Shown: piece after piece, positions 1 through 64,000 of the stretch
How positions within the stretch are numbered: position 1 is the first letter of the stretch
Layout of the letters: every line of letters starts with the position of its first letter
Assembly (NCBI GenBank): GCA_027459625.1
Contig: DAIDHP010000016.1
Location: forward strand, 1 to 64,000
Source: Chthonomonadales bacterium
GTDB taxonomy: Bacteria > Armatimonadota > Chthonomonadetes > Chthonomonadales > CAJBBX01
Length of the DNA: 64,000 bases
Reading direction: 5' to 3'
The notes under the pieces: model-generated
What the model saw: the letters and a program-made list of their open reading frames with translations, nothing else
Database searches by the model: none
What the model was told of the DNA's origin: nothing
Translations under genes and position numbers: made by a program

Positions 1-693
1 GGCAATCTTTATGGAACCACCTATGATAGCGGGGTTAATGACGATGGCACCATTTTCAAAATCGCTCCTGGCGGTATTTTCACCACCATTTACGACTTTC
101 CAGTTATGCATGTAGGAATTCGTTCTGGTATGTATGTGGATGCACAAGGCAATCTTTATGGCACCACGGAAGCTGGAGGTCTCTATTGGTTTGGCGACGT
201 GTATGAATTGACACCCAATGGCGTCATCAAGATACTGCACAATTTTAACGCGACGGACGGAGTCTACCCAGAAAGAGGTTCCCTTACAATGGACGCACTG
301 AACAACCTTTACGGATGCGCCAGCCACGATGGAGCGTACAACAGAGGGGTTGTTTTCAAATTGACTCCATCCAATGGAGCATACACCGTTCTGCACAGCT
401 TCAACGGGACGGACGGAGCCTATCCTCTTAGGGTATCCATACTCCTTGACAGTCAAGGCAACCTCTACGGAACAACTGAAGAAGGCGGGGCTTATAACAA
501 AGGGGTTGTTTTCAAGCTGACTCCTAACGGCGCATACACCATCCTGCACAGTTTCGATGGAACGGATGGTTGGGAACCCTCATCCGGTTTGACCATGGAT
601 AGCCAAGGGAATCTATACGGGATCACAGAGGTTGGCGGAGCGAATAATTTGGGCACGATATATGAAATCAAAGGGGCCGTGAGCTCACCTTAG
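1..693 (+). CDS. GloVer tandem-repeat protein, 5' end cut by window
   Basis: The frame is open from base 1, so the gene starts upstream of the window. It holds five copies of a roughly 40-residue unit that begins NLYGTT, continues with a glycine pair and a VFKLTP-NG segment, and ends with a LHSFNGTDG-type segment. This is the GloVer-type repeat found in secreted, probably beta-propeller-like proteins of environmental bacteria. The last unit is shorter and the protein ends nine residues after YEIKG. No anchor or sorting signal is visible at this C-terminus. No enzymatic residues can be named. A strong hairpin terminator follows within 75 bases. Function is unknown; a surface or secreted binding role is an inference from the family. 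Confidence 0.8.
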   Translation, partial: GNLYGTTYDSGVNDDGTIFKIAPGGIFTTIYDFPVMHVGIRSGMYVDAQGNLYGTTEAGGLYWFGDVYELTPNGVIKILHNFNATDGVYPERGSLTMDALNNLYGCASHDGAYNRGVVFKLTPSNGAYTVLHSFNGTDGAYPLRVSILLDSQGNLYGTTEEGGAYNKGVVFKLTPNGAYTILHSFDGTDGWEPSSGLTMDSQGNLYGITEVGGANNLGTIYEIKGAVSSP

Positions 694-1110
694 GTCGAAT
701 TCACGCTCCGCCATCAAGTCATTTAACGAAGGGGGGGGGACGGAACACCTTCCCCCCTTCGTTTTTAATCCTATTACCTCCCTTGTATGGTCAGCATGTT
801 GTATGCGCCGATGGGAAGATTGTTGTTCGTCTGCACCTTGGATGCTTCCATCATCGCCTGTTCGGATTGCGCGGTGCTTTGGGACGGTGCCCATGAGAGT
901 GAGCCTGTTGTTCTCCACTTTTACGGTGATGCTCGCCCCCTTGAGAGCGGGGTCGGCGTTGATGGAGTCCTGAATGAGCTTCACCGTGGCGTTATCCGGA
1001 ACGGGTGCGCTGCTCCCTGCCACGACGCCGTCATTGTTATGCGAACTGCACCCCGCCAGAAGAATTAATCCCGCCAGACCGCAAAGGGAGATAATCGATT
1101 GAATTCTCAT
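685..1110 (-). CDS. BON-domain lipoprotein, probably frameshifted
   Basis: The start ATG at 1110 is preceded by AAAAGGAG. Residues 1-21 are a lipoprotein signal with an LLAGC lipobox, so the mature protein would be attached to a membrane through Cys21. Residues 37-75 look like the first half of a BON domain (phospholipid-binding or osmotic-stress type), ending in LTLMGTV. After that point the listed frame turns into basic, low-complexity sequence and runs through the terminator at 727-765. Dropping one base in the GGG run at 881-883 restores a sensible C-terminus (VQSTAQSEQAMMEA and then NNNLPIGAYNMLTIQGR) ending at a TAA at 774-776, just before the terminator. I therefore think the true product is about 112 residues and ends at 774, and that the gene is either a recent frameshift mutant or carries a sequencing error. 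Confidence 0.65.
   Translation of the reverse strand: MRIQSIISLCGLAGLILLAGCSSHNNDGVVAGSSAPVPDNATVKLIQDSINADPALKGASITVKVENNRLTLMGTVPKHRAIRTGDDGSIQGADEQQSSHRRIQHADHTREVIGLKTKGGRCSVPPPSLNDLMAEREFDLR
727..765 (+). terminator. Rho-independent terminator, convergent genes
   Basis: A G-rich arm (GAAGGGGGG) and its complement (CCCCCCTTC) form a stem that is followed by GTTTTT on the plus strand. It terminates the GloVer gene. The minus-strand lipoprotein gene also appears to end just before it (see that entry), so the hairpin may serve both directions. Confidence 0.75.
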
Positions 1111-1208
1111 ACACGCTCCTTTTCAAAGAGAATAACACTCAATTTATTTCAAACGGACTTTCCCGGACGCCCGCAAGGAGCGCCGGAAAAGTCCGTCGAA
1201 CTAAGGAC

Positions 1209-1937
1209 TTACTGTCCGCGCATGGTGTATTGGAAATAGTATCCGTTATAACCCTTCTGCTGCAGTGCGCCCAGGCTCATCGCCTTCACGTGTCCGTCAC
1301 ACCAAAGTACGTTCGTCATGTTGTTATGGCGGGCAACGGTGCATCCCTCCGTGCCGTTCGCAGGCACGAACCAGCCTAATTGTTCATATCCTGCGTCGTT
1401 CCAAAAAGGCGGATCACCATTCGGCCAGTCAACCTGGTAGGTTCCGTTGCCGTCCGTTACCCATATCGTGGAGGCGGGATTCATGAGGCTAGATAGTGTG
1501 TATCCACTCCCACCGTTGCTGTTGCCTGGGCCTAAATCGGGATATCCCTGTCCCCAATAGGAGGAGTTCATGGCGTAGCTGCCATAGTGGTGATTATCTT
1601 GTCCGGTAAGTTGATAATATGGGATATAAGTGGGGCTTGCGCCGTAGAGTCCGCCATCATCCGGACAAGTGAAGATTTGCGTTGACTTGGCATATGGAAG
1701 TACCTCATCCATCCATTTCCACCCGAAACCTACGGATGGAGGGGCGGACCAAAACGGGGTCCCCATCCACGATTGTGGAAGATGCTCATCGTAATCCTGT
1801 GAGTACTGCATGCAAGCCAAACCGATCTGTTGCAGATTGCTTGCGCATGAAATTTGTCTCGCTTTTTCTCGCGCTTGAGCGAAAACAGGAAATAGAATTG
1901 CCGCGAGAATCGCTATAATGGCTATAACGACAAGCAA
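1209..1937 (-). CDS. Prepilin-like protein with H-X9-DG tail
   Basis: The N-terminus is a type IV prepilin or type II pseudopilin signal ([19 protein letters not shown]), followed by an [18 protein letters not shown] segment typical of DUF1559 proteins. The C-terminus has the processing-associated H-X9-DG motif (His in ARHNNM, DG in WCDGH). Such proteins are exported, cleaved by a prepilin peptidase and occur in many paralogues; their role is poorly known. The start is odd. The signal clearly extends upstream to about base 1967 ([10 protein letters not shown]), but between the in-frame stop at 2001-2003 and the signal there is no ATG, GTG or TTG. Only an internal TTG at 1937 is available, which would cut off the cleavage site. 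A mutated or non-canonical start is likely. Confidence 0.75.
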
Positions 1938-2480
1938 TTCAATTAATGTGAAACCAAATTGATGTTTTGCTTTTAATGTATGATCCTTTCCAACCTTAAT
2001 TTAAATATAGAGACGGCAGGGAGCTGAAAGCCAACTCGTTGACGGATTACACCTTACAGTTGTCACTTTTACATGTGAATTCGGCAATAAAGCAGGTTGA
2101 ACGGGGTTATCAATCAACTGATGTGAAATAGGCAGACTGTGGAATTACACTTGCCTCGCGTACCATACCAACACCGTCCGCATGCCTCACTACGCTTGAA
2201 TTTAGGCATACTCTGTTAAATTCATTATTCAGAGGTAATTGCAAAATTCAGAAAATGAGGCTAATATCGCTCATTTCATGCTCGGCGAAATACCTGGAAA
2301 GCGAATTTTGCAATTACCTGTTCAGTATATCGGAATTTCGACCATCATGTCAATTGATCAACACACACAAGCTATTATGGATAAATAAATGGGGGATACG
2401 GACGGATTACGTTGCATGCATGACGGAAACGTTATGTGTAAGTGTCGGAACGTCGGTTGGATCCATTTGAGCGGGACGGG
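1938..2480. other. Intergenic region with a palindromic element
   Basis: No convincing gene is seen. The stretch holds the upstream part of the prepilin-like gene and, at 2233-2319, one copy of the palindromic element described separately. Confidence 0.6.
2233..2319. repeat. Palindromic element copy 1 (about 87 bp)
   Basis: Two perfect 17-base inverted arms, AGGTAATTGCAAAATTC at 2233-2249 and its complement at 2303-2319, enclose 53 bases. An inner hairpin (AAATGAG and CTCATTT) sits in the left half of the spacer. Elements with the same arm sequence and the same total length are found at 43672-43755 and 53515-53599. All lie between genes. It could be a MITE or REP-like element or a structured RNA. 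Confidence 0.65.
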
Positions 2481-2507
2481 AAAAAGCCCCGCTTCATGCG
2501 GGGCTTG
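2481..2507 (-). terminator. Terminator of the repeat barrel gene
   Basis: On the minus strand AAGCCCCGC and GCGGGGCTT form a tight stem with a short ATGA loop, followed by TTT and a further T. It lies directly after the stop codon of the 2522-5929 gene. Confidence 0.85.
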
Positions 2508-2521
2508 GATTTTCCATGTTA

Positions 2522-5500
2522 TTAAAATATGGATTTATACTCCACATTCGTTTGCAGGTTGTAGTAAGAGGTGGCGTGGTTGGTCATGTAATTGGTGGAG
2601 AGTGTTAGGTAATGATCCGAATCCAGCTTGGTATCATACGCCAATTGGAAATTTTCCGTGTCCGCAGGCTGTCCCACCACTTGATGACTTAAATCCACAT
2701 TGTATCCGACCTGGATCGTACTCAGTTTATCTATGTTCCCTTGAAGTCCGCCACCGAACATATTGGTGCCTGTATTCAAAGTGACGTTCTTCGCCATGGT
2801 GTAGTTAATATTCATCTTCAAGGTTTTATCCAGTTGCTGATTGAAGGCGAAAGTGGACGCTTTGGTTTGCTGCACCACGCCCACCGGAGTGGATGGCAAT
2901 GAATTGTATGTCCAAGCAACCGAGGTAAGCGCACCCAGTTTGTAGTCCGCCGAGTATGTGCGAGATAAAATCAACTGGCCGAAATTCACGTTCATGGCGT
3001 TGTACAATACATGCATGTGGAACGGCAGTTTCTGATTTGGATCGCTCGTAAACTCAAAGGAGCGTGAAATCAGTCCGGTGTTGTTAGCATTGAGCGTTCC
3101 GCCATAATTCAATGAAATGAGATTTTTCATGAACATGCCGCTGATTTTGCCGCCTGTTTGGTTGGTTTGATGTCCGGAATTAATCGACGTAGCCATGTTC
3201 GCGGATATCACCAGGTTCTTAAAACCAAGAAAATTCATCGGCTTGGCGTTGCCCAGCGAATAATCAAGCACTTTATTGATGGGCTGGTTTGTCTGCCGGA
3301 TCAGGGCGTAGTTGCAGGAGACGTTCAAATCCCTTCCGACGGGGCTTGACGCTCCAAAACCTTCCGAGTTGATGATCGCACCCGTATTCTGATCCCAAGT
3401 GTTGCCTTGATTGGCATTCAGCTTCAGGGTTTTGGTGACCATGGAATCGATTTTAATGAAATGCGCCAACTGGCTGGTTCCGTTATTGGTATTCACCATG
3501 GCGAAAGCGCTGTTGAGATTGAACTTGGGGCCTGCCTGCCAGTTATAAAGGATGTTGCTTGTGTTTTGGTCGTTCCAAACCCCGTTCGCCCCTTGGTTAA
3601 GTTGCTCCTGCGAGATATTCAGATCCATGGTTTTATTTGGATGGATATCCATATTGATGAGATTATGCACGTCCCCGCTCTGCACCTTGGAGTCTTGGAA
3701 GAAGTTATTTCCCTCGGAAAGCATGGTGACATGCATGCCGGGGCCGTCGGACCAATTCAAGCTATGGTTCCAGATGCTTCGCGACATTTTCGCTGTTGGG
3801 TTATCGGCGTTGTAGATACTACTGGATAGATTCAGGTTTTTGACACTTGTCAAATTAAGTCCGAAGTTGTACCGGTTGAAACCGACTTCGGAGGCGATGC
3901 TCTGCTTTTCTGCTTCCGTGATCCCGGACAATCCCATCGCTTGGTTGAAATTCGGCGACACATTGGATGTGCCGAATTGCAGATCCAACCCTTTCATGGC
4001 GTAATGCAGATCGTTGCGTTGCAGTCCGTTGTTATCTCCTTGAAGACTTAATCTATCAAAAGTCAACGAGGATCCCTTGCCGATTGTCCATTGAGTATTC
4101 AAGTCCAAGCGATGCAAACCCCGCTCCGCCGCCACATCCTGAATATCCGCAGGGGTCATTCCCCCCAAATCCATCGCACGGGTGAAATTTGCGTCCGTGT
4201 TTGCCATTTTCAAACCGATTTGAAAATTCTTCGCCCCGTAATCCAACGATTGCCGCGTCAATCCGCTTTGCGAATCGCCCACGCTAAGATTGGTGAAGTT
4301 TAACGACGAAGTTTTATTCAGTACGAGTTTCATTCCCAAATTGGTGGTGTGCATGCCCGCTTCATTGCCCAGTTGCGCCTTTTCGAAGTTATCTAGCGAT
4401 GCAAGTCGGTTGAACCCCTGGCTGATATTCTGATCCATATAGTTCAGAGTAAGATTGGCAAGGTTGATGTCCATGGAATTGCGCATGACTCCGCCCGTGC
4501 TATCCCCGATATTGGCGAAATTAAGTGTCATGGCTCCTTTTTTGCCCAAAGCGGTTTGGACGCTCATCAAACTGCGCGACAATCCGCTGTCTCCGGCGAG
4601 TTGAACCTTGTCCAAGGGGGTCACAGAGTTGGCGGCTGCGTTCGGGTCGAACTGCTGATGGATTGCAAGCGCCAAATTGCTCTTCTCGGCGTCAGTCATA
4701 CTTGTAAAACGATTGAAGGAAGAGCCCGCTTGACTCTCGAAATAACTGACCTTGAACCCCTTGGAACCGTACTGGACATTTTGTTGCGCCAAAGCGCCGG
4801 AAGCATCACCCATGGTTGAACTGTTGAAATTCAAGTAACTCGATTTTTCCGAGCCGAACCCCATGGAGATGTTGTTTCGCGATACTCCCTTTTCCAAAGC
4901 CAATTGCCCGGCGTTCACATTGGACAAATTTCCAAACGCATTGAAGGTATTTCCCACCATCTGATTTGACATATTCACATGAAAGGCTTTGCCCGTATAT
5001 CCCACGCTTTGCTGAAGTATTTGACCCGTCTTATCGTGAATCGTGTTCCAGTCGAAGGACATCGCCCCGCCGCCGGTCATTTTCAATCCCCCGCCGAAAC
5101 CCAGCCTTTGGATGCCTTTCTCCTTCTCCAAAGCGGCCAACTGCGACTGTTGCGTGGAGCCGCCTTGAAGCATATTGTAGCCGGCGAAGTTCGATCCAAC
5201 ATCCTGGAAATTCGCATGGAAGGAGGCGGCCCCGGCATTCAGGTTCAGGTTTTGCAGGATGAGATGATCCGACTTGGCGTTCGGTGCGAGTTGCTTCAAG
5301 GCTGCCGGTTGTGTGGGAGCGAAACCTTCCTGCACCATGTTATTAGAGTTCATTCCCGGCGTGCTGAAATAGACCATGCTGTTCAATCCGCCGGATCCCA
5401 TCTTACTGTTAATATTCATTCCGTAGGTGTTGAACGTCTGAGAATTGACCGAAGCGATCCCCGCCCTGAAGTTCATACTTGCGCCCGCCACGTTTAGCGC

Positions 5501-5929
5501 CAGGATGCCAAGGGGCGAGGCGGTGGCGGCGGGGGCGGCGGCGTCGTAAGTATAAGTCACACCAATCGTATCAAACCGCAGTATCGGCTGTGAGAAATAG
5601 ATGGAACCGGTCGCGTAATCCACGAAATAGCCCGTGCCATTGATTAACGGCAATCCGTTTTTCGTAACGCGAATGGTATCCGGAACAATGTTACCGTGGC
5701 TCAGCATATAGCCTGCGTTGGTTCCATTACCAGGCAACTCCTCACGGCAGGTTTGTGGCTTCACGGGTTTTGCGGGAGTTGCAGTCGTGGCGGCACTCGA
5801 ACCGGTACCAAACCCGGCCTCCTGGATTCCCACCGTCTGGGCAATGGACCCCGACAAAACCAAAGTGAGAGCCGAGAGCGAGATCACTGTGTGAAGCAAT
5901 GTTCGGTTGTAGAGATTAGTGCGTTTCAT
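2522..5929 (-). CDS. Large repeat-built outer membrane beta-barrel candidate
   Basis: This 1,135-residue protein has a signal peptide (about residues 1-30, ending SGSIAQT). A short domain at about 60-130 follows (IRVTKNGLPLINGTGYFVD and IYFSQPI), resembling a beta-sandwich linker. From about 220 to 730 there are six imperfect repeats of 85-90 residues. Each has an amphipathic beta segment with a D-x-x-G turn, a Y-x-x-K-G segment, an NFN or NFT followed by a short helix with an acidic EK or AEK, and then a G-hydrophobic-R step. The C-terminal part is rich in alternating polar and apolar strands and the protein ends in Phe (VEYKSIF), as outer membrane barrels do. It lies 35 bases after an anti-sigma-like gene on the same strand, so the two are probably co-transcribed. 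I do not recognise the family; barrel topology is an inference. Confidence 0.75.
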   Translation of the reverse strand: MKRTNLYNRTLLHTVISLSALTLVLSGSIAQTVGIQEAGFGTGSSAATTATPAKPVKPQTCREELPGNGTNAGYMLSHGNIVPDTIRVTKNGLPLINGTGYFVDYATGSIYFSQPILRFDTIGVTYTYDAAAPAATASPLGILALNVAGASMNFRAGIASVNSQTFNTYGMNINSKMGSGGLNSMVYFSTPGMNSNNMVQEGFAPTQPAALKQLAPNAKSDHLILQNLNLNAGAASFHANFQDVGSNFAGYNMLQGGSTQQSQLAALEKEKGIQRLGFGGGLKMTGGGAMSFDWNTIHDKTGQILQQSVGYTGKAFHVNMSNQMVGNTFNAFGNLSNVNAGQLALEKGVSRNNISMGFGSEKSSYLNFNSSTMGDASGALAQQNVQYGSKGFKVSYFESQAGSSFNRFTSMTDAEKSNLALAIHQQFDPNAAANSVTPLDKVQLAGDSGLSRSLMSVQTALGKKGAMTLNFANIGDSTGGVMRNSMDINLANLTLNYMDQNISQGFNRLASLDNFEKAQLGNEAGMHTTNLGMKLVLNKTSSLNFTNLSVGDSQSGLTRQSLDYGAKNFQIGLKMANTDANFTRAMDLGGMTPADIQDVAAERGLHRLDLNTQWTIGKGSSLTFDRLSLQGDNNGLQRNDLHYAMKGLDLQFGTSNVSPNFNQAMGLSGITEAEKQSIASEVGFNRYNFGLNLTSVKNLNLSSSIYNADNPTAKMSRSIWNHSLNWSDGPGMHVTMLSEGNNFFQDSKVQSGDVHNLINMDIHPNKTMDLNISQEQLNQGANGVWNDQNTSNILYNWQAGPKFNLNSAFAMVNTNNGTSQLAHFIKIDSMVTKTLKLNANQGNTWDQNTGAIINSEGFGASSPVGRDLNVSCNYALIRQTNQPINKVLDYSLGNAKPMNFLGFKNLVISANMATSINSGHQTNQTGGKISGMFMKNLISLNYGGTLNANNTGLISRSFEFTSDPNQKLPFHMHVLYNAMNVNFGQLILSRTYSADYKLGALTSVAWTYNSLPSTPVGVVQQTKASTFAFNQQLDKTLKMNINYTMAKNVTLNTGTNMFGGGLQGNIDKLSTIQVGYNVDLSHQVVGQPADTENFQLAYDTKLDSDHYLTLSTNYMTNHATSYYNLQTNVEYKSIF

Positions 5930-5964
5930 CTTAACAACTCATTTAAGGTACATAGATTGGCGGA

Positions 5965-6954
5965 TTAAAAATTGCTTTTTAGAAGATCCACCCGTATTTC
6001 GTGATTGTCGGTGCGAACGGATGCAGGCACGCTCCACTCGCTGTTTTGTTGTCTCAAAGAGTTTTTCAAATTGCTTAGCGTCGCCATTTGCTCCGGGTTA
6101 ACAGCCGATGGCATGGAAGCCAGCACGATGTGAACCGGCTCACGATCCACTTGCGGCGTCGGCGGAACAGTTGCGACGGGAGGAGTGATGTTTGTAACGG
6201 TTGTTGACACCGAAACCGACGGCTTGGTGACGGTGGATGGAACCACTGATGTTGTCGGCGCTGTGGCTATGGATGCGGAAGCGATATCGTCGGAGGACGG
6301 CGCCTTCATCCGCATTTCGCTCATTGAAGCCCCCCCGATATGCGAAAGCCTGATCTCCTGGGAGGGTTTACGTCGGTTCGTCTCCTCGCGGGGAGCCCAT
6401 GTAAAGCTCATTTTGGGCGCCAATCGTTTTCCTTCAAAGGAGCGTTTCGTCACGGAGCGCGGGCTCTTCACGGCAACTCCGACAATCGGAGATGGAAGAG
6501 CGCTTACGATTGAGTTCTCCTTTTTATTCAAGGCGGGAGGCAGCCCGGGAAGATTAACCGACAGAGGCGCCAACTGAGCGATAACCGGATTTCCGCTTGG
6601 CTGTGGTTGATGATGGTTCAAAGCGATGACGCTCGCAAGAAGCAGAGATGCCGCCACCAAACCCATCGCCCGCATCGGCATGGGCACGGGAAGCGATTGC
6701 CAGGCGGCTCGCAGCCGACCGATGAGGGTGGGACGGTTCACCGTGGCGTCCAGAATGAGCCGATGAAGCTCCAATGGAGGCTCCACTTCGGGCATCTGGG
6801 AAAGGATTAGTCCGCTTCCCTTGAGAAAGCTAGCTTCCGCTCGACAATGTTCGCAGCTCCGGAGATGCTCTTCAACGATTCTTGCCTCTTCCGAGGAGGC
6901 TTCTCCATCTGACCAGACCGAGAGCAAATCCCACATATCATCGCATTTCATCAT
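5965..6954 (-). CDS. Zinc-finger anti-sigma factor-like membrane protein
   Basis: The start is placed at 6954 because GGAGGAGG lies five bases before it. Residues 1-60 form a zinc-binding anti-sigma domain: MKCDDMWDLLSVWSDGE, then the HLRSCEHC motif (His and two Cys). A transmembrane helix lies at about 97-113 (MGLVAASLLLASVIAL). The remaining 210 residues are outside the cytoplasm: proline- and threonine-rich with a folded C-terminal piece (EPVHIVLASMP to the end). Members of this family hold an ECF sigma factor at the membrane. No sigma factor gene is adjacent, since the upstream neighbour is the PafA/Dop enzyme, which is unusual. The likely partner in output is the repeat barrel protein encoded just downstream. 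Confidence 0.75.
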   Translation of the reverse strand: MMKCDDMWDLLSVWSDGEASSEEARIVEEHLRSCEHCRAEASFLKGSGLILSQMPEVEPPLELHRLILDATVNRPTLIGRLRAAWQSLPVPMPMRAMGLVAASLLLASVIALNHHQPQPSGNPVIAQLAPLSVNLPGLPPALNKKENSIVSALPSPIVGVAVKSPRSVTKRSFEGKRLAPKMSFTWAPREETNRRKPSQEIRLSHIGGASMSEMRMKAPSSDDIASASIATAPTTSVVPSTVTKPSVSVSTTVTNITPPVATVPPTPQVDREPVHIVLASMPSAVNPEQMATLSNLKNSLRQQNSEWSVPASVRTDNHEIRVDLLKSNF

Positions 6955-7205
6955 TTTCCCCTCCTCCTTATTGGAGGTTGCCAAGCATATGAATTAGTGA
7001 ATTATGAAAATACAATGAATGAGACAACTTGGAGAGGAAAATGTTGCAGGAAACCTGAAAAAATTTTAAGTTTTTTTTCCCAGTGATGACAAAAACAATT
7101 CCGAGGGTGTCGGTGGGTCAAACGATGCGTTCACGGCACCCCTTTTTACCTCCCCTCCGCGCCAAGGGCTCCCTCCGTTCTTGACGAGTGGCAAGAGTCG
7201 CGTCA

Positions 7206-8672
7206 TTACAATTTAATGAGACGCGCCTCCCTTTCGTAAGTATGGAAGGGGTTTTTCAAGTCCATCTGACGGTTTTTTTCAAGATAGATCGCGTCCCAGT
7301 CGATAACATAGCGCGTCGAGGGATTGGCGAGCAGTTTACTCACAACCATGCCTCTTCCAAAGGCGCGCGTATTGTTCGGAGGATTGACCACGGCGTATCC
7401 GACGCTCTTCTCCTCCGTCACGCGCGGCATCATCCCCGAATCCTCCAGCGCGGCGTGTATGCTCACTCTCGGATTGAGGTTGTGATACTCCAGATCCAAG
7501 CTCTGCAGCGAATCATCCTGCCAGGAGATATTCTCCTCGTCAATGTACTGCTGATAGAGAACCCGTTTCGCAGACCAATCCAAACGATCCGAAGTTGAAA
7601 GGGGATCGCGCTCAAGATCATCCAATATTTTCTCCCATTCACGCAGGAGACGGTCCGTTTTGGCGTCATGCCCGCCCATTTTCTTCAGGGAGGCTTCCAA
7701 ATAGAGCCTTTGGATATCGACGGCGGAAATAGTGCGCCCGTTACGCAAGCGGACGATCCAACGGTAAGACGGGTCTCGTGAAACGGAGCGCAAAGTATCG
7801 ATGGGATCCAACAACTCGGTGTTCCGAGGTGCGCAATTCTCTTCGATCAGATCGAGGACAAGGCTTGTCGTGCCGATCTTGAGATAGGTGGCGTATTCAC
7901 TCATATTGGATTCGCCGAAGAGAATATGCAACCGATGCAGATTGGAATAGTTGTAATAGTTATCCCACTTGGGATTGATGATGGCTCGATTAAACCGAAC
8001 GCGCGAGGAAATGGTTTTCACGATGTGGTCGGCGCGCTGAGAAAGCTGAAAATTGACTGTCGGGTCGATCTCCACACCGTAAAAATTGCTCACCCACACG
8101 TAGTCCACTTCATGCTCGCCCAAGGTCATGATATTGGATTTGCTGCTCGGACGCGTAAGCCGATGCCCTCCCACACGTCCCGCTCCGGCGAAAATCTGAC
8201 GGGTCGCTAAAAAAGGAAGGAGGTCGGAGAGCGCATCGGTGAAGAAACGGTCCTCAATCTGAACCAGGTAGTTTTCGTGACATCCGAAAGTATGCCCTCC
8301 GAAGTGATCAATCGCGTTATTATGGAAACTGACCGCTTCCGTGATACCCATGTCATCAAGGATGTTTTGCAGGAGTTCCCTTCCCGCCCTGTCATAAAGT
8401 ACGATATCGTCGAAATCCAGGCACTCCGGCGTTGCGTACTCCTCATGACTGCCCACGGCGTCGATGTAGAGCCTGCCTCCGTTACGCAGGAACCCACCCG
8501 CTCTTGCGGGCTCGAATGCGTAATCCCTGGCGTGCAGATCAATCACCCCAAGGCGTCTATTGCAAAATGCATGGTCCTTGACCTTTTCCACGACCTCCTC
8601 CACGGAGCCTAAGGAAGGGTCTCGCACCATGCATCCAAATTCCGTCTCAATTCCGAAAATTCTCTTTTCCAT
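7206..8672 (-). CDS. dop: Pupylation enzyme, PafA/Dop family
   Basis: The protein shows the glutamine-synthetase-like fold of the Pup ligase PafA and the Pup deamidase/depupylase Dop. MEKRIFGIETEFG opens it, so the start is put at the ATG at 8672; an upstream TTG would add 18 residues without family support. Further motifs are GCHENYL, FQLSQRADHI, GESNMSEYATYLKIGTT, SRDPSYR, WEKILDDLERDP and NPPNNTRAFGRG. The last four resemble actinobacterial Dop more than PafA, whereas the N-terminus and GCHENYL resemble PafA. I therefore call the family with confidence and the exact member only tentatively as Dop. In the family the enzyme either attaches Pup to lysines using ATP or processes and removes Pup. 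No pup, prcBA or mpa gene is in this window. It lies about 160 bases after the sugar kinase gene on the same strand. Confidence 0.85.
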   Translation of the reverse strand: MEKRIFGIETEFGCMVRDPSLGSVEEVVEKVKDHAFCNRRLGVIDLHARDYAFEPARAGGFLRNGGRLYIDAVGSHEEYATPECLDFDDIVLYDRAGRELLQNILDDMGITEAVSFHNNAIDHFGGHTFGCHENYLVQIEDRFFTDALSDLLPFLATRQIFAGAGRVGGHRLTRPSSKSNIMTLGEHEVDYVWVSNFYGVEIDPTVNFQLSQRADHIVKTISSRVRFNRAIINPKWDNYYNYSNLHRLHILFGESNMSEYATYLKIGTTSLVLDLIEENCAPRNTELLDPIDTLRSVSRDPSYRWIVRLRNGRTISAVDIQRLYLEASLKKMGGHDAKTDRLLREWEKILDDLERDPLSTSDRLDWSAKRVLYQQYIDEENISWQDDSLQSLDLEYHNLNPRVSIHAALEDSGMMPRVTEEKSVGYAVVNPPNNTRAFGRGMVVSKLLANPSTRYVIDWDAIYLEKNRQMDLKNPFHTYEREARLIKL

Positions 8673-8832
8673 GACAGCCAAACACTTTCTTGTATCGAAC
8701 ATTCCGCAAGCGACCGGATGACGCAATTCATATGGGAATACTCATCAAAGGCTGTAATGGTTCCTTCCCTGCCTCCTTCCAACCATAAACATGGTATGAA
8801 ATCACGCGAATGGAAAGGAATCTATTTCAACT

Positions 8833-9777
8833 TCACTTCCGCATCAACCCACCGGCGGCGATGAAAGTTTCTATCTCCTCCAATGGTTTCATCCCGCCTG
8901 TCGCCCCCAAAGCCATGACGGAGAAAGCCCCGGCGGCATTAGCGAATTTCGCCGTTCGTTCCATGTCCCATCCCAGCATCAAGCCCGCCAGAAAACCTGC
9001 GTCGAAAGCATCTCCGCTTCCGGTGCCGTCCACGACGGGAACGGAGAACGCCGGAGACTCCAACTCCATATCCCGCCCCTGAATGTAGCATCCTTTTTCC
9101 CCGAGTTTCAGAACCACGGTTTTCACTCCCGCATCCCTCAAAGCTTTGGCGACATCCTTTGGATCCTGCATTCCGGTGATCTCCTGAGCTTCGGAAAGGC
9201 TCGGCTCGAAATAATCGGTCCAGGGAAGGCAAGGCTCAAGCGTTTTCATCCATTTCCCCGTGGCATCCCAAACCGTGTCAAGGGAGGTGATCTTGCCTCT
9301 TTTCTTCGCCTCCTTCAAGGTTCTCGCCATCGGGTCTCCATCGAATTGGGGCATAACCAAAGCCCCGGCGACATGCAGAATCCCGCATTCATCAATCACA
9401 TCCCAGTTCACATCCGTCTCGAAATATCTCGCATTGCCTCCAAGATAGTGAAGGAAGGTCCGTTCGCCGTCGGCTCCCACCAGCACCATGGATGCGGACG
9501 TGCCTACGGTGTCGTCCCTCGCCAATCCTCTCGTGTCCAGTCCGTGTCTTTCCAACACGTTGACAACAAAATCCCCAAGCCCGTCTCGTCCCACTTTACC
9601 AAGCACGGCGGTGTCGATTCCCATCTTCCGCAGATCAATGCCGGTATTCGAAGCGCATCCCCCGATATGGAGGGACATCTCTTCCACAAGCCCCAAACGC
9701 CCCCTCGGAGGTAACTGATCAATAGGTCTGCCAAGCAAATCCGCAGTAAAAATTCCCAGACAGGCGATTTTCCGCAT
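8833..9777 (-). CDS. PfkB-family sugar kinase
   Basis: This 314-residue protein is a ribokinase/PfkB-type carbohydrate kinase. The N-terminal signature GGCASNTGIDLRKMG and the C-terminal signature DGTGSGDAFDAGFLAG are both present; the Asp of GDAF is the catalytic base that activates the sugar hydroxyl. GKVGRDGLGDF and KLGEKGCYI are further family landmarks. The start has GGGAG seven bases upstream. The gene is third in a minus-strand operon after a TIM-barrel isomerase and a GH38 alpha-mannosidase, which suggests that it phosphorylates a sugar released by, or isomerised within, that pathway. The substrate cannot be read from the sequence. Confidence 0.88.
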   Translation of the reverse strand: MRKIACLGIFTADLLGRPIDQLPPRGRLGLVEEMSLHIGGCASNTGIDLRKMGIDTAVLGKVGRDGLGDFVVNVLERHGLDTRGLARDDTVGTSASMVLVGADGERTFLHYLGGNARYFETDVNWDVIDECGILHVAGALVMPQFDGDPMARTLKEAKKRGKITSLDTVWDATGKWMKTLEPCLPWTDYFEPSLSEAQEITGMQDPKDVAKALRDAGVKTVVLKLGEKGCYIQGRDMELESPAFSVPVVDGTGSGDAFDAGFLAGLMLGWDMERTAKFANAAGAFSVMALGATGGMKPLEEIETFIAAGGLMRK

Positions 9778-9895
9778 AATCTTCTCCCTAAATCAGGCGA
9801 TGGCATCAAATCCATACTCAGGCAACGGATTTCATCGGTACTGATCAGGCATCCGAGTGAAAATGGAATTGATGTGATTGCCAATATCGATAATA

Positions 9896-12502
9896 TTAAA
9901 GTTCGAACTCAACGGTAACAATTCTTCGTGAAGGCACATCCATATGGAAAGTGTCCCCCTCCGTCCAATCCTCCAACGGATCTTCATTCATATTCACCAG
10001 CCGGTGTCGTTTCGCGCCTGGCAAGGATATCCGACCTTTTTTCATCTCCTCATCCAAGATATTGTAAAAGCGAGCGATCAAATTTTCCCCGTCCTCGGCG
10101 CCTTTGATGGCAGTCACGATGAGAGTAGCCGGATCCGCACGAACGAAGGTGCGCAGAGTCGGGGCGGTTGAAGGCGGATTGCCCTGTACCGCCATCATCG
10201 GAACATTAAACTGGTGCGCCTGCTTCCAAACCATTCCCCCCTTCCAACAGCCTTGGCTGATGGTCCATGCATAGCGGAAATGGTTGACTCCCTTACATTG
10301 GGCATCGGGAGTGGAGATACCGGGGCCATCACCCCGCCCGCTCAACTGTCCCACGCATCTCAGCAGAGTGACGGCAAGTGATTGAACCCCTTCGGAGTTG
10401 CTGTAAACCTCGTATTCCGGCAGACCTCTATTGATGATAGTCATCGTCTGTTCGGTATTCTCAGCACTTTCCATCGTCTCATTACCCGGCTCATCGCCCA
10501 CCAAAGCCGTCCAAAATTGCTGTGGATGGAACGGGGCTCCGTCGAGATCACCGTAGGGATTCTCGATGGGTCGCTCCACAACATCATATTGCCCCTCCGC
10601 GTAGGAATAGGGTCTGAACTGCAACCCATACGCATTTTCAAAGCGCACCCTTAGGCGGTGGTCCTCCGCCTGGTTGTCAATCCGGGTCTCGAACTCCACC
10701 CTCGGGATATCCGCCCATTTGGTCATGCGGGTCGTGATTCGGCAGGCGACTCTCTCCGCGCTTCTGGAACGTCCGTCCTCGGTCTTGCTCTTTGGGAGTT
10801 CCCAGTCCTGGGTGTAGACAAACGTGCGTCGAACGGCGTTGGTCTCCTCGGAATAGGATGATCCCCCCAATCGAAGATGATAAAGGGAATCGTTCATGGG
10901 TTTTCGATGGAGATACTCGTCACCAACCTCCCCGCAATCCTCGAAGACGACAGGATAGGCGGAAGGCATTCGCTCCTCGGACTGGATCGGATACATCGGC
11001 ATGGTGTTTTCAATTTGAATCTTATAAGCCGCGTATCCGCAGGGAGGAATTTCCTTTGTTATGAACTCAATCTCATACTTCTGAACCCACTGATCCAAAG
11101 GCAATTCACGGGGATTCAGCACCATTTTGCAGTAGACTTCCGTGTTCAGCACTGCGAAAGGAGTTTCTGTTTTTCCGTCCGGCGCAATCAGCTTGAAACC
11201 CCTCACCATGCGGGATAGGTCCTTCGTGGGATTGCCCCGGGCGGGCTCTCCAAGAGGAAATTCCAAAGTGGCGCGAACGGGATCCGTGCGACTCCAGTTC
11301 AAGGGATTAAAAACCGTCAATGTGAGATTGTCACGTTGCGCCCCCTTGGTTTGATCGTATCCCGCTAATCGGTTCATCGCCCGCTCGGCCATGTCATCCG
11401 CAACTTGCTTCGCCTGACGGAATCGAGGGATCATATCCCGATGCGTTTCATCGGTGGAACAGCCGCAGATGGAATCGTGAGGATGGTTTTGCATGAGCAA
11501 TTTCCAAGCAAAACGAAGCGTCTCCAATGGATACTTTTCACCTTCGATCCTGGCGAATGAGGCGAACCGCTCCGCGTATTGCTCCAAGGATATTTGAGCG
11601 GCGTGGTTCATCTGCTTCAAATACATGCGGGCGGAAAGCGTGCCGGCGAGACAGGCGCCATGCCGGTCCTCCCTCAACTCCCCTTTCCATGTCTCCAAGG
11701 CACCATCTTGTATTTCGACTTCTCTTCGAACCAAAGTGATGTAGTTGGTGAGAGTGTCGTGCACCACGGAATCCCCGGAGGATTTGGAAAGCAGCGGTTG
11801 GATTTTTCTCAGTATCTTACCAATATCCGGCTGAGCCTCCAAGTGATCCACACCGTTCATCAGGAGAAGATGATGCGTCAGGGAGTGTGGCGCCATCCTC
11901 TGTTTGATTTGTTCCGCATATTGAACCGCCTCCACCGTATCGGAAGGAAAGGTCTGGGCGTTGTTGTACCAGAAAGCCATCAGACTGGAGAGCACTGCGG
12001 AGCCATCTGGGGCGACCCAGTCAAACTCCATCTTCCTGCCGTCCGTCAGTTGATAACCCCTGCCCATGATGGCGTTATCAATTCCGAATCCTCGAAAAAT
12101 CTGAGGCATCTGGGAGATATTGCCGAATTGATCCGGCAGATAACCGATTTTTTGCACGGCGCCGAACTGTTCGGCGATTCTGTGCCCCTCCAATAGACTG
12201 CGAACGGTGGATTCCCCGCTCACGAGAAACTCATCATTCAGTTGATACCAGGGGCCAATGGCGATCTTTCCTTCTCGTATGTATCTTTCCAGACGCGCAC
12301 GGTTGGATGGGCGCAACTCCAGGTAGTCCTCGAGAACGATCGTTTGAGCGTCAAGATTGAAATGAACAAAGTCAGGATCGGTGTCCAGAATATCCAAGAG
12401 ATGATCAATCAAATCCACGAGTCTTAGACGAAACCTTTGGAAGGGAAAATACCATTCCCTGTCCCAATGGGTGTGCGACACGACATGCAAAGTATAAGAC
12501 AT
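9896..12502 (-). CDS. GH38 alpha-mannosidase
   Basis: This 868-residue protein is a family 38 glycoside hydrolase that removes alpha-linked mannose with retention of configuration. The N-terminal HTHWDREW carries the zinc-binding His and Asp. YLPDQFGN holds the Asp expected to act as nucleophile and to bind zinc. QNHPHDSICGCSTDETHRD supplies another zinc-binding His-Asp pair. The middle and C-terminal beta domains follow from about residue 390. No signal peptide is seen, so it probably acts in the cytoplasm on imported oligosaccharides. It starts 30 bases after the stop of the isomerase gene and precedes the PfkB kinase by 118 bases. Bacterial homologues include MngB, which cleaves 2-O-6-phospho-mannosyl-glycerate, but I cannot assign that substrate. 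Confidence 0.9.
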   Translation of the reverse strand: MSYTLHVVSHTHWDREWYFPFQRFRLRLVDLIDHLLDILDTDPDFVHFNLDAQTIVLEDYLELRPSNRARLERYIREGKIAIGPWYQLNDEFLVSGESTVRSLLEGHRIAEQFGAVQKIGYLPDQFGNISQMPQIFRGFGIDNAIMGRGYQLTDGRKMEFDWVAPDGSAVLSSLMAFWYNNAQTFPSDTVEAVQYAEQIKQRMAPHSLTHHLLLMNGVDHLEAQPDIGKILRKIQPLLSKSSGDSVVHDTLTNYITLVRREVEIQDGALETWKGELREDRHGACLAGTLSARMYLKQMNHAAQISLEQYAERFASFARIEGEKYPLETLRFAWKLLMQNHPHDSICGCSTDETHRDMIPRFRQAKQVADDMAERAMNRLAGYDQTKGAQRDNLTLTVFNPLNWSRTDPVRATLEFPLGEPARGNPTKDLSRMVRGFKLIAPDGKTETPFAVLNTEVYCKMVLNPRELPLDQWVQKYEIEFITKEIPPCGYAAYKIQIENTMPMYPIQSEERMPSAYPVVFEDCGEVGDEYLHRKPMNDSLYHLRLGGSSYSEETNAVRRTFVYTQDWELPKSKTEDGRSRSAERVACRITTRMTKWADIPRVEFETRIDNQAEDHRLRVRFENAYGLQFRPYSYAEGQYDVVERPIENPYGDLDGAPFHPQQFWTALVGDEPGNETMESAENTEQTMTIINRGLPEYEVYSNSEGVQSLAVTLLRCVGQLSGRGDGPGISTPDAQCKGVNHFRYAWTISQGCWKGGMVWKQAHQFNVPMMAVQGNPPSTAPTLRTFVRADPATLIVTAIKGAEDGENLIARFYNILDEEMKKGRISLPGAKRHRLVNMNEDPLEDWTEGDTFHMDVPSRRIVTVEFEL

Positions 12503-17395: not shown

Positions 17396-19291
17396 TTAGT
17401 ATTTGACTATGACGCTGCTGGTGAAGGTGTTGTAGTTGGCTGAGTTCAAACCAGACGTGTAATCCGATAGCAGATTATGTCCGTTGAACATACCCAACTC
17501 GTAGCCGAGTTTCAACATCGTGCTGCTGGTGAGGTTCACACCAGCTCCGATGCGGAAATACTGCTCGGTGGGAGTAACGCTGTATCCGGACGGGATGCCT
17601 AAGGCATCGCCGCCGCCAAAGTTCCAGAACACGCCCTCATAACCCAAGGTGGTAACCAGGTTCTTGTTCGGGTTCCAATGCATTCCCGCCAACACCTGAT
17701 AGATGCTGTCGTTGGTGCTCAAGTTCCCGGGAAGATTTCTGGCTCCGGTGTAGTAAGCGCCGCCTACATTCACGCCCAAGGATGGGGTGAAGTCGTATGC
17801 CGCGTTAAACGTCGGTCCTTGAATGTTAGTCGGGTTGTACCAGTTGCCGAGTTTGCCCCAGTAACCGGGTGCATAGAACAAAGGATCGATGTAGCGATAT
17901 CCGGCATCGAGATTCAAAGCTCCGGCCTTATATCCCACAGTGGCGTTGTAAGCGTTGTCCAAGTGATTGACTCGGGTGGAAAATCTCCCCGCGCCAAGCA
18001 CGGATGCAGCCCATTCGCCCTGAAGGGTGATACGATCCGTAAGCTTCATATCCAAACCGGAACCGTACACGTAAACATTGTCCCCGCCTGCATAGGTTGC
18101 CATCGAAGGATCATTGCTGTTTCCGCTCAAATCCATCACGGTGCCGCGCAGGTGGATACCATGCATGACAGGTACGTTCACGCCCATGTTCAAGCCAACG
18201 ACTTTATCCACCTGGATTGCGCCAGGCATGATGCCTGCAGGCTTGATGCCCTTGCCGTTGACGGCTTGGAGCAAACCGGTGGCCATGGTGTCGGTCATAC
18301 CGGCGGTGGGAGTGACAATCTGCCCGGTCACGTTGACTGTTTGACCGGCGACGAGGTTCACATTCAAGCTACCGAAGTTGGTGTTGACTCGAGCACCATC
18401 CATGTAATACTGCCCATCGTTCAGGCTAGGATCAGACAGATAGGTGTCGAAATTCGGCTTTTCGAAAGTGAGAGAGCTAATCTTCTCACCGAAGCGACCA
18501 ATGGTGAGCGAGCTATCGCGACCAACCATCTTAAGAGGAGCGTTTAACTCCAACTTTTGAAGATACGTGTCGTTAGCGATGCTGCCATTGGGGCCTACGC
18601 CGATGGTTTCATAGTTCTTGTAGTTGCCGGTGATCATTTCGCCGGTCAGGGTTGCGCCGTTGCCGAGTTGAGCATGTACGCCAAGAGCCAAATCCTCCAC
18701 AACCACGTTGGGAGCGAAGGTGAGACCGTCGGCGTCCACTCCATGGATGGTACCGCTGTCATTGCGATAACCAATGAAAGCGTGTCCATAGATTTTCGGC
18801 ATTCGATTGAGTTCGGCCTGGATGGTGGAGACTCTCTTCGAGAGATCGTCGAGCCGTCGATCGATGGCGTTGACGTTGTCTCCGAGACTTGCCAATTCGT
18901 TTTTGAACTCGTCAGCCAGTCTGCGAAAAGTATCCAGTTCCTCAGGGGTCACTCCGGGAGGTCCTTCGGGACCAGCCGGTCCGACATCGCCCTGGGGGCC
19001 TTGCGGGCCCTGCTCGCCCTGCTCGCCCTGCGGGCCCTGAATCACGCCGATGCTTTTCAAAGCGCGATCAAGAGCCACAGCGAACTCGTAGCGAGTGAGG
19101 GTGCGTCTGCCCTTAAATGTCCCGTCGGGATAGCCGATCAGGATACCCTTGGCTTGCAGTGATTTCACCGCATCATAAGCCCAGTGGCTAGGATCGACAT
19201 CTCTGAACATGTCCGGGGCTTGCTGAGCCTGGGCCATGCTTACGGATGCGAGACAGAGGGCTGTACATAGAAAGGTAATAACCTTTCTCAT
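17396..19291 (-). CDS. SLH-domain, collagen-like, coiled-coil outer membrane porin
   Basis: This 631-residue protein starts after AGGAGG. Residues 1-22 are a signal peptide. Residues 28-80 form one SLH domain (MFRDVDPSHWAYDAVKSL, GYPDGTFKGRRTLTRYEFA), which binds modified peptidoglycan. Residues 84-113 are a collagen-like Gly-X-Y stretch (GPQGEQGEQGPQGPQGD and onward). Residues 115-165 are a coiled coil with heptad spacing. The rest is a beta-barrel of the SLH-porin type ending in VIVKY. Such proteins (OmpM or SlpA type) tether the outer membrane to the wall in diderm Terrabacteria such as Cyanobacteria, Deinococcus and Negativicutes. The collagen segment between SLH and coil is uncommon in this family. 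A sigma-70-type promoter lies about 260 bases upstream, giving a long leader. Confidence 0.9.
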   Translation of the reverse strand: MRKVITFLCTALCLASVSMAQAQQAPDMFRDVDPSHWAYDAVKSLQAKGILIGYPDGTFKGRRTLTRYEFAVALDRALKSIGVIQGPQGEQGEQGPQGPQGDVGPAGPEGPPGVTPEELDTFRRLADEFKNELASLGDNVNAIDRRLDDLSKRVSTIQAELNRMPKIYGHAFIGYRNDSGTIHGVDADGLTFAPNVVVEDLALGVHAQLGNGATLTGEMITGNYKNYETIGVGPNGSIANDTYLQKLELNAPLKMVGRDSSLTIGRFGEKISSLTFEKPNFDTYLSDPSLNDGQYYMDGARVNTNFGSLNVNLVAGQTVNVTGQIVTPTAGMTDTMATGLLQAVNGKGIKPAGIMPGAIQVDKVVGLNMGVNVPVMHGIHLRGTVMDLSGNSNDPSMATYAGGDNVYVYGSGLDMKLTDRITLQGEWAASVLGAGRFSTRVNHLDNAYNATVGYKAGALNLDAGYRYIDPLFYAPGYWGKLGNWYNPTNIQGPTFNAAYDFTPSLGVNVGGAYYTGARNLPGNLSTNDSIYQVLAGMHWNPNKNLVTTLGYEGVFWNFGGGDALGIPSGYSVTPTEQYFRIGAGVNLTSSTMLKLGYELGMFNGHNLLSDYTSGLNSANYNTFTSSVIVKY

Positions 19292-56892: not shown

Positions 56893-58518
56893 TTATTTCG
56901 TTTTTTGACTGTTTCCGTTCAAGGAGACGTTCCGCTTGATGAACTCCATATACTCCTCCCGATAATACCTTAATGTGCTTAACACCGGGTTCGGAGCGGA
57001 CTGTCCAAGTCCGCAGAGGCTGCAGGTTTTGACCATATCGCAAAGGTCCTGCAGTTTCATGATGTCGTTCTCGGTTCCATGCTCTTCCCTTATCTTGGTT
57101 AGAATCCTGTAAATCTGCACCGTGCCCGCACGGCAGGGAATGCATTTGCCGCATGATTCATCCATGCAGAACTCCATGAAGAACCGCGCCACGTCCACCA
57201 TGTTGTTGGTGTCATCCATCACGATCATGCCGCCGGAACCCATGATGGAACCGATCTGACTTAGGGATTCGTAATCCACGGGCGTATCCAGCTTGGAATA
57301 GGGAATGCAGCCGCCGGAAGGTCCTCCAGTCTGCACGGCTTTCACCATGCCGCCGTCAGGCACGCCCCCTGCCATCTCTTCGACGATCACACGGAGAGGA
57401 GTGCCCATGGGGACCTCAATCAAACCGGTGTTTTTCACCTTTCCCGCGAGAGCGAACACCTTCGTCCCCTTGCTTTTTTCGGTGCCAATGGAGCTGAACC
57501 AATCCGCCCCCTTGCGGATAATCACTGGGATGTTGGCGAATGTCTCTACGTTATTTATTAGCGTGGGAGAGTGCCATAGTCCGCTTTCGGCTGGGAATGG
57601 TGGTCGAGGACGGGGAGTGCCTCTACGACCTTCGATGGATGCCATCAGAGCGGTCTCCTCGCCGCATACAAAAGCCCCCGCGCCGATTCGCAAGTCCACA
57701 CGAAAGTCGAATGACGTTTCGAAAATTCCGCTTCCGAGCAGACCGTATTTCCTCGTTTGGCGTATCGCCGTCTGCAATCTGCTGATAGCGAGCGGGTATT
57801 CCCCTCTCACATAGACGTATCCTTGGTTGGCGCCTACGGCGTACCCGGCGATCGCCATCCCCTCCAAAACACGATGCGGATCGCTTTCCAGTACCGATCG
57901 ATCCATAAACGCCCCTGGATCGCCTTCGTCCGCATTGCAGACCACGTATTTGCGTTCCGCATGCGTCTTTGCAACCATGCCCCACTTCAATCCCGTGGGA
58001 TAACCCGCCCCTCCGCGTCCGCGTAAACCGCTTCTGGTGACTTCGTCCACCACCGAGGCGGGTTTCATCTCATTCAACGCCTTTTGAAGAGCGAAATAAC
58101 CGTCACTGGCGATATAGGTCTCAATTTTTTCAGGATCCACCTTGCCACTGTTCTCCAGTACGATGGGCACCTGTTTTGTGAAGAACGGGTGGTTGATATC
58201 GCCTTTCTTGATATCAGCCGCTCCGCCCTTTAACGATGCGACAATTGATGTGGCATCCTCCGGCTTCACTTTCTCGTAGAGGATGCCATCCGGATCAACC
58301 TGCACCAAAGGTCCTTCGCTGCAGAGTCCCATACATCCCACACCTATAACCGCAACCTGATCCTCCATGCCGGCGTCTTTGACGGCAAGCTCAAGGTTCT
58401 CCTTAATCGATTGTCCGCCTGATGAAATGCATCCTGCGGCAAGGCAACATCGTAAATTAATCGGCTTCGCCGAGTTTTGCTCTTTTTCCTTTATTTCAAT
58501 TAGTTCATTCAGATCCAT
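56893..58518 (-). CDS. hoxF: NAD-reducing hydrogenase diaphorase subunit HoxF, second copy
   Basis: This 541-residue protein matches cyanobacterial HoxF in length and order. Residues 20-90 are a thioredoxin-like [2Fe-2S] domain (RCCLAAGC and [10 protein letters not shown]). The NuoF-type core has [16 protein letters not shown] for [17 protein letters not shown] and [13 protein letters not shown] for FMN. The C-terminal [13 protein letters not shown] and CSLCGLGQ hold the [4Fe-4S] cluster. It oxidises or reduces NAD(H) for the hydrogenase. It overlaps its hoxE partner by 14 bases. It is a close paralogue of the copy at 62241-63875, roughly three quarters identical by eye. Confidence 0.93.
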
Positions 58519-60864: not shown

Positions 60865-60943
60865 AACCAAATCCCCATTTCCATTTCCCAGTGTCGCGGA
60901 ATGATCCGCGACGGATTGACATCAACATATCCTCGCTCGAATA

Positions 60944-63875: not shown

Positions 63876-64000
63876 CCTCAATCCACCCTTTCAGTTGTTC
63901 CGTAACCATCTCCTCGGATTGCCCCCCGACCACCTTGCCGTCCATCACAATCGCGGGAGCGATGCCGCACGCCCCGATACACCGAGCGGTCATCAGGGAG
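63865..64000 (-). CDS. hoxE: Diaphorase subunit HoxE, first copy, cut by window
   Basis: Only the C-terminal 44 codons are inside the window. They read [21 protein letters not shown], with two of the [2Fe-2S] Cys ligands, and end GWIEDGF before a TAA at 63865-63867. The match with the second hoxE ([21 protein letters not shown]) is close. The stop overlaps the hoxF' start. Confidence 0.88.

Follow-up and report, generated by a model that had tools for sequence, protein, structure and literature searches.

Which sigma factor does an anti-sigma factor hold when no sigma gene lies beside it, and what would it report on? The question is raised by a stretch of 64,000 nucleotides from a Chthonomonadales bacterium (contig DAIDHP010000016.1 of assembly GCA_027459625.1; hereafter the window), which encodes an orphan membrane anti-sigma factor directly followed by a giant, probably outer-membrane, barrel protein (Table 1). 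A candidate partner was found elsewhere in the same genome, an extracytoplasmic function (ECF) sigma factor encoded next to bamA. We lean slightly towards the reading that the anti-sigma factor, the bamA-linked sigma factor and a promoter-like element before the operon make up a split, sigma-E-like switch for outer-membrane assembly. Genomes, loci and genome families are referred to below by G, L and f numbers.

A preceding sequence-only reading had placed a zinc-finger anti-sigma factor 35 bases before a 1,135-residue protein ending in Phe and had noted the absence of an ECF sigma gene, and all of this was borne out. Both open reading frames (ORFs) are on the minus strand, the barrel start follows the anti-sigma stop by 35 nt, the first protein matches zf-HC2 and the second ends in ..EYKSIF. 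No sigma match was obtained in positions 1-12000 of the window, and none of the 22 sigma-region-2 matches of the genome was on the window's contig. The flanking genes were the barrel gene and a Pup ligase gene, and no rseB was seen adjoining the pair. The protein has the zinc domain of the zinc-type (ZAS) anti-sigma factors and a single transmembrane (TM) helix preceded by a cytoplasmic domain, the latter judged from hydropathy and a weak structure model; the adjacent cognate ECF sigma gene that goes with this class is lacking. Its family profile matched, over positions 14-80, the anti-sigma domain of RsiW (PDB 5wuq) with E 1e-11. zf-HC2 was the sole common match among the 30 family members scanned, and no FecR-type anti-sigma match was found among them.

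The missing neighbour was compared with other zf-HC2 proteins at 36 loci in 13 genomes, comprising the best 30 of 116 matches and six loci from the window's own genome. Of these, 26 were not beside a barrel gene and served as controls, while 10 were barrel-linked (9 distinct proteins). An ECF sigma gene was directly upstream in 26 of 26 controls versus none of the 9 barrel-linked proteins, and a terminal Phe was found at all 10 barrel-linked loci versus 1 of the 26 controls; the contrast between the two groups is strong by the Fisher test (1.4e-8), which ignores kinship. In the own genome, five of the six zf-HC2 proteins adjoined an ECF sigma gene, the window anti-sigma factor being the sole exception.

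At E<=0.001, tblastn detected relatives of the barrel protein in 47 of 61 genomes, a large share of the matches being restricted to the N-terminal domain; a profile search with a threshold of E<=1e-20 found them in 176 of 291 genomes from the phylum. A selected portion of all barrel matches was analysed, namely 91 loci (the window, L033-L051 and L081-L151), one per genome and mostly 1-3, at most 4, per genus. Sixty-three were outside family f14, and four of these were cut off upstream (L087, L132, L134, L147). All of the remaining 59 testable loci had an anti-sigma homologue upstream of the barrel gene on the same strand, so that conservation of the pair in relatives, which the sequence-only reading had put forward as a check, was found outside f14. 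The distance was mostly <=140 nt, with 272 nt in L045 and 613 nt in L082, whose barrel gene has a split frame and whose upstream anti-sigma gene was chosen by hand. By contrast, none of the 28 f14 barrel loci had an upstream anti-sigma gene, and the anti-sigma profile gave no match beyond its position 222 of 325 in the eight f14 genomes searched whole; for G120 and G165, two of the eight f14 genomes in the bamA survey described below, the absence was judged from the region upstream of the barrel gene. Judged by gene order, the pair is a conserved unit. No relative was found in the viral contigs searched, the search of genome contigs returned as sole match the sister locus L032 (95% identical), and among the titles listed from the open-access literature none dealt with this pair.

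The candidate partner is encoded on contig C4 of the own genome (G000:C4, locus L251, 4934-5605) in the Pfam-confirmed order tamB-sigma-bamA-ompH, with a gene that is lipA-like by eye before tamB and no zf-HC2 gene near the sigma gene. Among the sigma factors of the own genome it is the one closest to the bamA-linked sigma factor of G234 (50% identity, next best 37%), and in both genomes the sigma gene lies between tamB and bamA. A wider survey took in 60 chosen genomes, the own genome and G234; 56 of the 62 were testable, G125 and G046 having no bamA match and G012, G031, G051 and G061 being affected by contig ends. The sigma gene preceded bamA in 45 of the 56. It was there in all 28 testable genomes with the anti-sigma factor, and among the 28 in which the anti-sigma factor was undetected it was present in 17 and missing in 11, these being eight f14 genomes (8 of 8 tested), two f5 genomes and G058. 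The co-occurrence gave a Fisher value of 2.9e-4, ignoring kinship. Across 25 genomes, distances between the anti-sigma domains tracked those of the bamA-linked sigma factor once BamA was accounted for, with a partial r of 0.30 (p 0.006), the corresponding value with BamA once sigma was accounted for being 0.14 (p 0.16); the correlation is modest and the comparison took in BamA and no other sigma factor. The candidate sigma gene is tied to outer-membrane assembly genes and the anti-sigma gene to a barrel gene, and that they belong together is what we infer. The partner encoded apart from the anti-sigma factor may be the ECF sigma factor whose gene stands between tamB and bamA, and the two may be halves of one alarm for outer-membrane construction.

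Before the operon an ECF-type promoter-like element recurs. The strict form TGYWAC-N15-KTGTC was found on the operon strand at 27 of the 59 anti-sigma loci, compared with one hit in total at the other twelve gaps (9 to 21) and none on the opposite strand, and a relaxed form at 33 of the 59, with three hits at other gaps and three on the opposite strand. Since the pattern was derived from the same loci, the count is descriptive only and the spacing control is the test. In f29, four of seven loci had GGTACA-N16-GTCTAA, in which the spacing from TAC to GTC is the same as in the main element. The relaxed form was upstream of none of the 28 f14 barrel genes. The window's element is the only strict match in the 64 kb. 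The whole genome contained eight strict matches versus 13 for the reversed control, and the operon site was the only one outside ORF frames; a wider regulon by this motif was accordingly rejected for this genome, seven of the eight sites lying within such frames. When a longer form was searched in another 18 genomes, 18 sites were obtained versus 7 for the reversed control, and 15 of the 18 were before the anti-sigma/barrel operon. One of the three off-operon sites, on contig G234:C137, lies after tamB between the ECF sigma gene and bamA; as off-operon sites did not exceed the control number, it counts by its position only. The element is of a TGYAAC..GTC type and resembles ECF promoters of Bacillus, and it would be the promoter recognised by the bamA-linked sigma factor, giving feedback on the operon.

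The anti-sigma proteins are also distinguished by what lies beyond the membrane. Forty-nine of the 59 homologues end in Phe, versus 1 of the 26 controls, usually within a tail of the form x[VI]x[VI]x[VIL][IV]xx[R/S]F; the exceptions are four f28 proteins, which have lost the tail, five of the seven f29 proteins, which end in a hydrophobic residue followed by Lys or Arg, and one protein with Tyr. The part after the TM helix measures 198 residues (standard deviation (sd) 27, coefficient of variation (CV) 0.14, n=59) versus 103 in controls (sd 58, CV 0.56, n=26), and it is uniform in length though low in complexity and poorly conserved, which fits a periplasm-spanning arm. The large outer domain described by the sequence-only reading is for the most part a low-complexity linker, followed by a small C-terminal element. 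The structure model, with a mean predicted local distance difference test (pLDDT) score of 40, was taken as a hint only. Two tandem zinc fingers precede the membrane helix in nine homologues from f16, f19, f35, f36 and f37 (L131, L133, L137-L140, L145, L146, L149).

The 1,135-residue protein is probably an outer-membrane beta-barrel, as the sequence-only reading had supposed. A signal peptide was recognised by eye, alternating strands were found, and a C-terminal beta-signal is provided by the f14 relatives. Amphipathic strand peaks numbered 38 in the window barrel (f1/f2) versus 23.5 in shuffles (sd 4.1, maximum 35) and 36 versus 20.3 (sd 3.6) in f14 barrels; the excess is weak in f19 barrels, with 37 versus 27.4 (sd 4.0, maximum 38). 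In the 27 distinct f14 tails, positions 0, -2, -4, -6, -8 and -10 are hydrophobic in 85-96% and those in between in 4-7%, which by its residue pattern is a textbook beta-signal. An AlphaFold2 model from two sequences had a mean pLDDT of 27. With unit borders placed by eye, a hidden Markov model (HMM) built from any five of the six repeats proposed earlier recovered the one left out (22-52 bits), which supports their number; the unit length of 85-90 residues gave way to a spacing of 76-101. Their pairwise identity, 21% versus 19% for shuffled units (maximum 23%), is hardly higher than chance. Insertions of repeat size distinguish barrel homologues in the alignment, in which the window barrel has about one repeat more than its relatives L034-L042 and f3 homologues carry further such insertions.

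Searches of Pfam, NCBIfam and PDB sequences gave no significant match to the window barrel. DUF2460, matched by 6 of the 14 family members with E 0.0042 at best, was set aside as weak, like other weak matches. The SprA/Sov model TIGR04189 did not match the window barrel and weakly matched one of the 14 members of set A1 (E 5.5e-5), and no Pfam or NCBIfam match to TonB-dependent receptor, plug or STN domains was found in the window barrel or the 13 other A1 members. The N-terminal domain recurs in an own-genome paralogue (G000:C4:27644; 38% identity, E 7e-5) and is shared by barrel-like proteins in L051 (9183-11186, minus strand) and L052 (5434-8730, minus strand); the paralogous barrel of the own genome in L052 had no anti-sigma-like neighbour. 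One of the barrel-like proteins that share this domain, of 667 residues in G033 (f6), stands just before the anti-sigma gene and matches Porin_4; it also has a weak SprA match (E 4.8e-4), which falls in the stretch resembling this N-terminal domain.

Table 1. Features of the anti-sigma/barrel operon in the window (positions counted from its first nucleotide)
Feature	Position	Strand	Basis
Giant barrel protein of 1135 aa, probably in the outer membrane	2522..5929	-	signal peptide, strand peaks, Phe end
C-terminal strand of the barrel protein, ..NVEYKSIF	2525..2560	-	sequence, comparison with homologues
Six repeats, residues 248-735, each of about four strands and a connector by eye	3725..5188	-	leave-one-out HMMs
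N-terminal beta-rich domain, residues 61-132	5534..5749	-	recurs in other barrel-like proteins
Signal peptide, residues 1-31	5837..5929	-	by eye from sequence
Orphan membrane anti-sigma factor, 329 aa, ATG at 6954 or 6951	5965..6954	-	zf-HC2, E 2.2e-8
C-terminal strand EIRVDLLKSNF, Phe-ended	5968..6000	-	family pattern
Small C-terminal element, residues 274-329, strand-helix-strand-strand	5968..6135	-	low-confidence model
Linker of low complexity without predicted structure, residues 114-273	6136..6615	-	hydropathy, low-confidence model
Single transmembrane helix, about residues 94-112	6619..6675	-	hydropathy; helix 92-113 in low-confidence model
Zinc-binding anti-sigma domain, C-x25-H-x3-C-x2-C complete	6841..6945	-	motif
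Promoter-like element of ECF type, TGCAAC-N15-TTGTC, some 69 nt upstream of the anti-sigma ATG	7023..7048	-	pattern match

The course of events that we infer from these data, including the binding of sigma by anti-sigma factor, promoter recognition, the partner of the tail, the signal and the proteolysis, may be depicted as follows. The anti-sigma factor would hold the bamA-linked ECF sigma factor at the inner membrane. Its flexible outer part of about 200 residues would reach across the periplasm, and the Phe-ended C-terminal strand would dock on the operon's barrel or on the beta-barrel assembly machine (BAM). Faulty assembly of outer-membrane barrels would change the docking, upon which the anti-sigma factor would be cleaved or the sigma factor released, and the freed sigma factor would transcribe the operon from TGYWAC-N15-KTGTC, supplying more barrel and, as a negative feedback, more anti-sigma factor. 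By analogy, a DegS-type or a FoxR/FoxA-type readout would fit. A more direct form is possible and is put forward tentatively, a trans-envelope alarm in which the arm plugs the Phe-ended strand into the barrel or BAM and the release of sigma reads barrel building itself.

Several observations weigh against this course of events. The bamA-linked sigma gene is more widely spread than the anti-sigma gene, being carried by the 17 genomes in which no anti-sigma factor of this family was detected (the genome families with the sigma gene alone are f7, f9, f10, f11, f12, f15, f17, f20, f22, f23 and f24), and the eight f14 losses belong to one clade and amount to one evolutionary event, with f5 perhaps a second. 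Fifteen of the 41 best anti-sigma-like matches in genomes of other families were not flanked by a sigma gene within the stretch read; five of the 15 zf-HC2-like proteins have a terminal or next-to-terminal Phe (among them those of G046, G045 and G031:C80), while G055, G072, G076 and G036 are among those without it. Diverged anti-sigma factors may thus be hidden in the genomes scored as not detected. G003 keeps the anti-sigma factor and its tail (..EVRLDFIKTRF; L217, 2292-3371, plus strand), together with the bamA-linked sigma gene, and no barrel was found there in the stretch behind the anti-sigma gene or by two genome searches (tblastn and profile). The hydrophobic phase of the anti-sigma tail (-9, -7, -5, -4, 0) differs from that of the f14 barrel beta-signal, which weakens the idea of a standard BAM beta-signal, and for this reason the tail is not called one here. 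Judged by pattern, none of the 13 f3 and four f28 homologues retains the zinc motif, and the f28 proteins have neither tail nor zinc ligands, yet their genomes keep the bamA-linked sigma gene. None of the own-genome sigma loci had the strict element, the element was absent before bamA in the own genome and at 29 other bamA loci, being seen in G234 only, and by number the three off-operon sites are no more than chance.

Some of these points would also be expected if the anti-sigma factor controlled another unlinked ECF sigma factor and its link to the bamA-linked one were a coincidence of two widespread genes. Besides the 17 genomes and the off-operon counts, 17 of the 22 sigma matches of the own genome, housekeeping included, have no zf-HC2 neighbour, and another sigma gene is divergent beside the pair in three f19 loci. 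We consider this explanation somewhat unlikely: not one of the 28 testable genomes with the anti-sigma factor lacks the bamA-linked sigma gene, f14 (8/8) and f5 (2/2) have neither that gene nor, where searched, a full-length anti-sigma factor, and in G234 the element stands beside the bamA-linked sigma gene. The divergent f19 ECF sigma factor (L140, L142, L149) was itself set aside as a partner, since in G234 and G246 it has its own small zf-HC2 protein nearby and it was not found adjoining the pair at the other loci.

The sequence-only reading had proposed a surface-signalling unit in which the barrel or its cargo reports to a distant sigma factor. The conserved pair and a distant candidate, the ECF sigma factor by bamA, agree with it; the barrel or its cargo as the sensor is the part that fared less well. 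Such an arrangement, with the barrel as a FoxA-like receptor or transporter whose N-terminal domain contacts the anti-sigma factor and reports ligand or cargo, would accord with the conserved operon, with the domain N-terminal to the barrel part and with an architecture that parallels FoxR/FoxA (PMC11637429). Among the families listed there was no match to a TonB-dependent receptor, to plug or STN domains or to FecR, and we hold this alternative to be unlikely. Because f14 retains the barrel without anti-sigma factor, promoter or, in the eight genomes tested, sigma factor, and G003 the tail without a detected barrel, it would be outer-membrane assembly that is sensed, at least as much as surface signalling by the barrel, and the G003 tail leans towards a general assembly partner. 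Very unlikely, finally, is a protein that is no longer a regulator and tethers the inner to the outer membrane as a structure, its anti-sigma domain being a cytoplasmic anchor: the uniform outer length, the conserved tail, the loss of zinc ligands from f3 and f28 homologues and an operon without sigma neighbour would suit it, but 29 of the 30 aligned members (five of them f3, none f28) still match zf-HC2 at E<=1, the profile match to RsiW covers the positions stated above, an ECF-type element precedes the operon and the bamA-linked sigma gene co-occurs.

Directly upstream of the promoter-like element, the window encodes a member of the Pup ligase family (7206-8726, minus strand; Pfam E 4e-126), for which the NCBIfam scores for Dop and PafA were nearly equal and both below their cut-offs. 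Further away, a 631-residue protein (17396-19291, minus strand) combines an SLH-like start (DVDPSHWAYDAVKSL...), a collagen-like and coiled-coil-like part and a barrel-like end, and we take it to be an OmpM-like outer-membrane anchor. Two very similar HoxF/NuoF-like ORFs (56893-58518 and 62241-63881, minus strand) surround a hydrogenase large-subunit-like ORF (59437-60870) in what is a duplicated module, the names being given by eye.

In our judgement, the sensing of outer-membrane assembly trouble outside Proteobacteria is largely open. The question becomes directly testable with a candidate sigma factor, an inhibitor, the promoter-like element and the client barrel, kept over much of a phylum that is apparently Armatimonadota. 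The Phe-ended tail on an arm of ruler length hints that the state of the outer membrane may be read out directly and physically, and the case illustrates a way in which promoter and co-occurrence might link an orphan anti-sigma factor with a sigma factor encoded elsewhere.

Among known systems, SprA/Sov shares with the window protein the character of a very large barrel, and the weak matches mentioned above are confined to relatives; the window protein itself has no match and no full-length similarity. The gene for RsiW adjoins its sigma gene. With RsiW/SigW the window system has in common the anti-sigma domain and a TGYAAC..GTC-type element, and it differs in that the 26 controls adjoin a sigma gene whereas the window anti-sigma gene does not. 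FecA/FecR/FecI is a cell-surface signalling system, as is FoxA/FoxR/FoxI. The likeness to the latter consists in an outer-membrane barrel, a membrane anti-sigma factor with a C-terminal contact part and an ECF sigma factor; here, however, matches to TonB receptors, STN and FecR are lacking, the anti-sigma domain is of the zf-HC2 type, the sigma gene is unlinked and a low-complexity arm takes the place of a folded periplasmic domain. In FoxR/FoxA the signalling domain of the barrel shields the anti-sigma factor from proteolysis when the signal is absent (PMC11637429).

The closest comparison is with sigma-E, RseA and DegS. The sigma-E regulon of Escherichia coli includes bamA, skp and lpxD. RseA domains with rseB and rseC in one operon were not found here, the RseA_N matches seen in 4 of the 30 members (E 0.022 at best) being insignificant; the genes are apart, the candidate sigma gene by bamA and the anti-sigma gene with the barrel, and the window anti-sigma factor itself bears a Phe-ending strand. 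In E. coli it is the exposed C-terminal Tyr-X-Phe of barrel proteins that activates DegS (PMC11642142). The likeness lies in an ECF sigma factor that would be held by a membrane anti-sigma factor and in the common theme of barrel-protein assembly.

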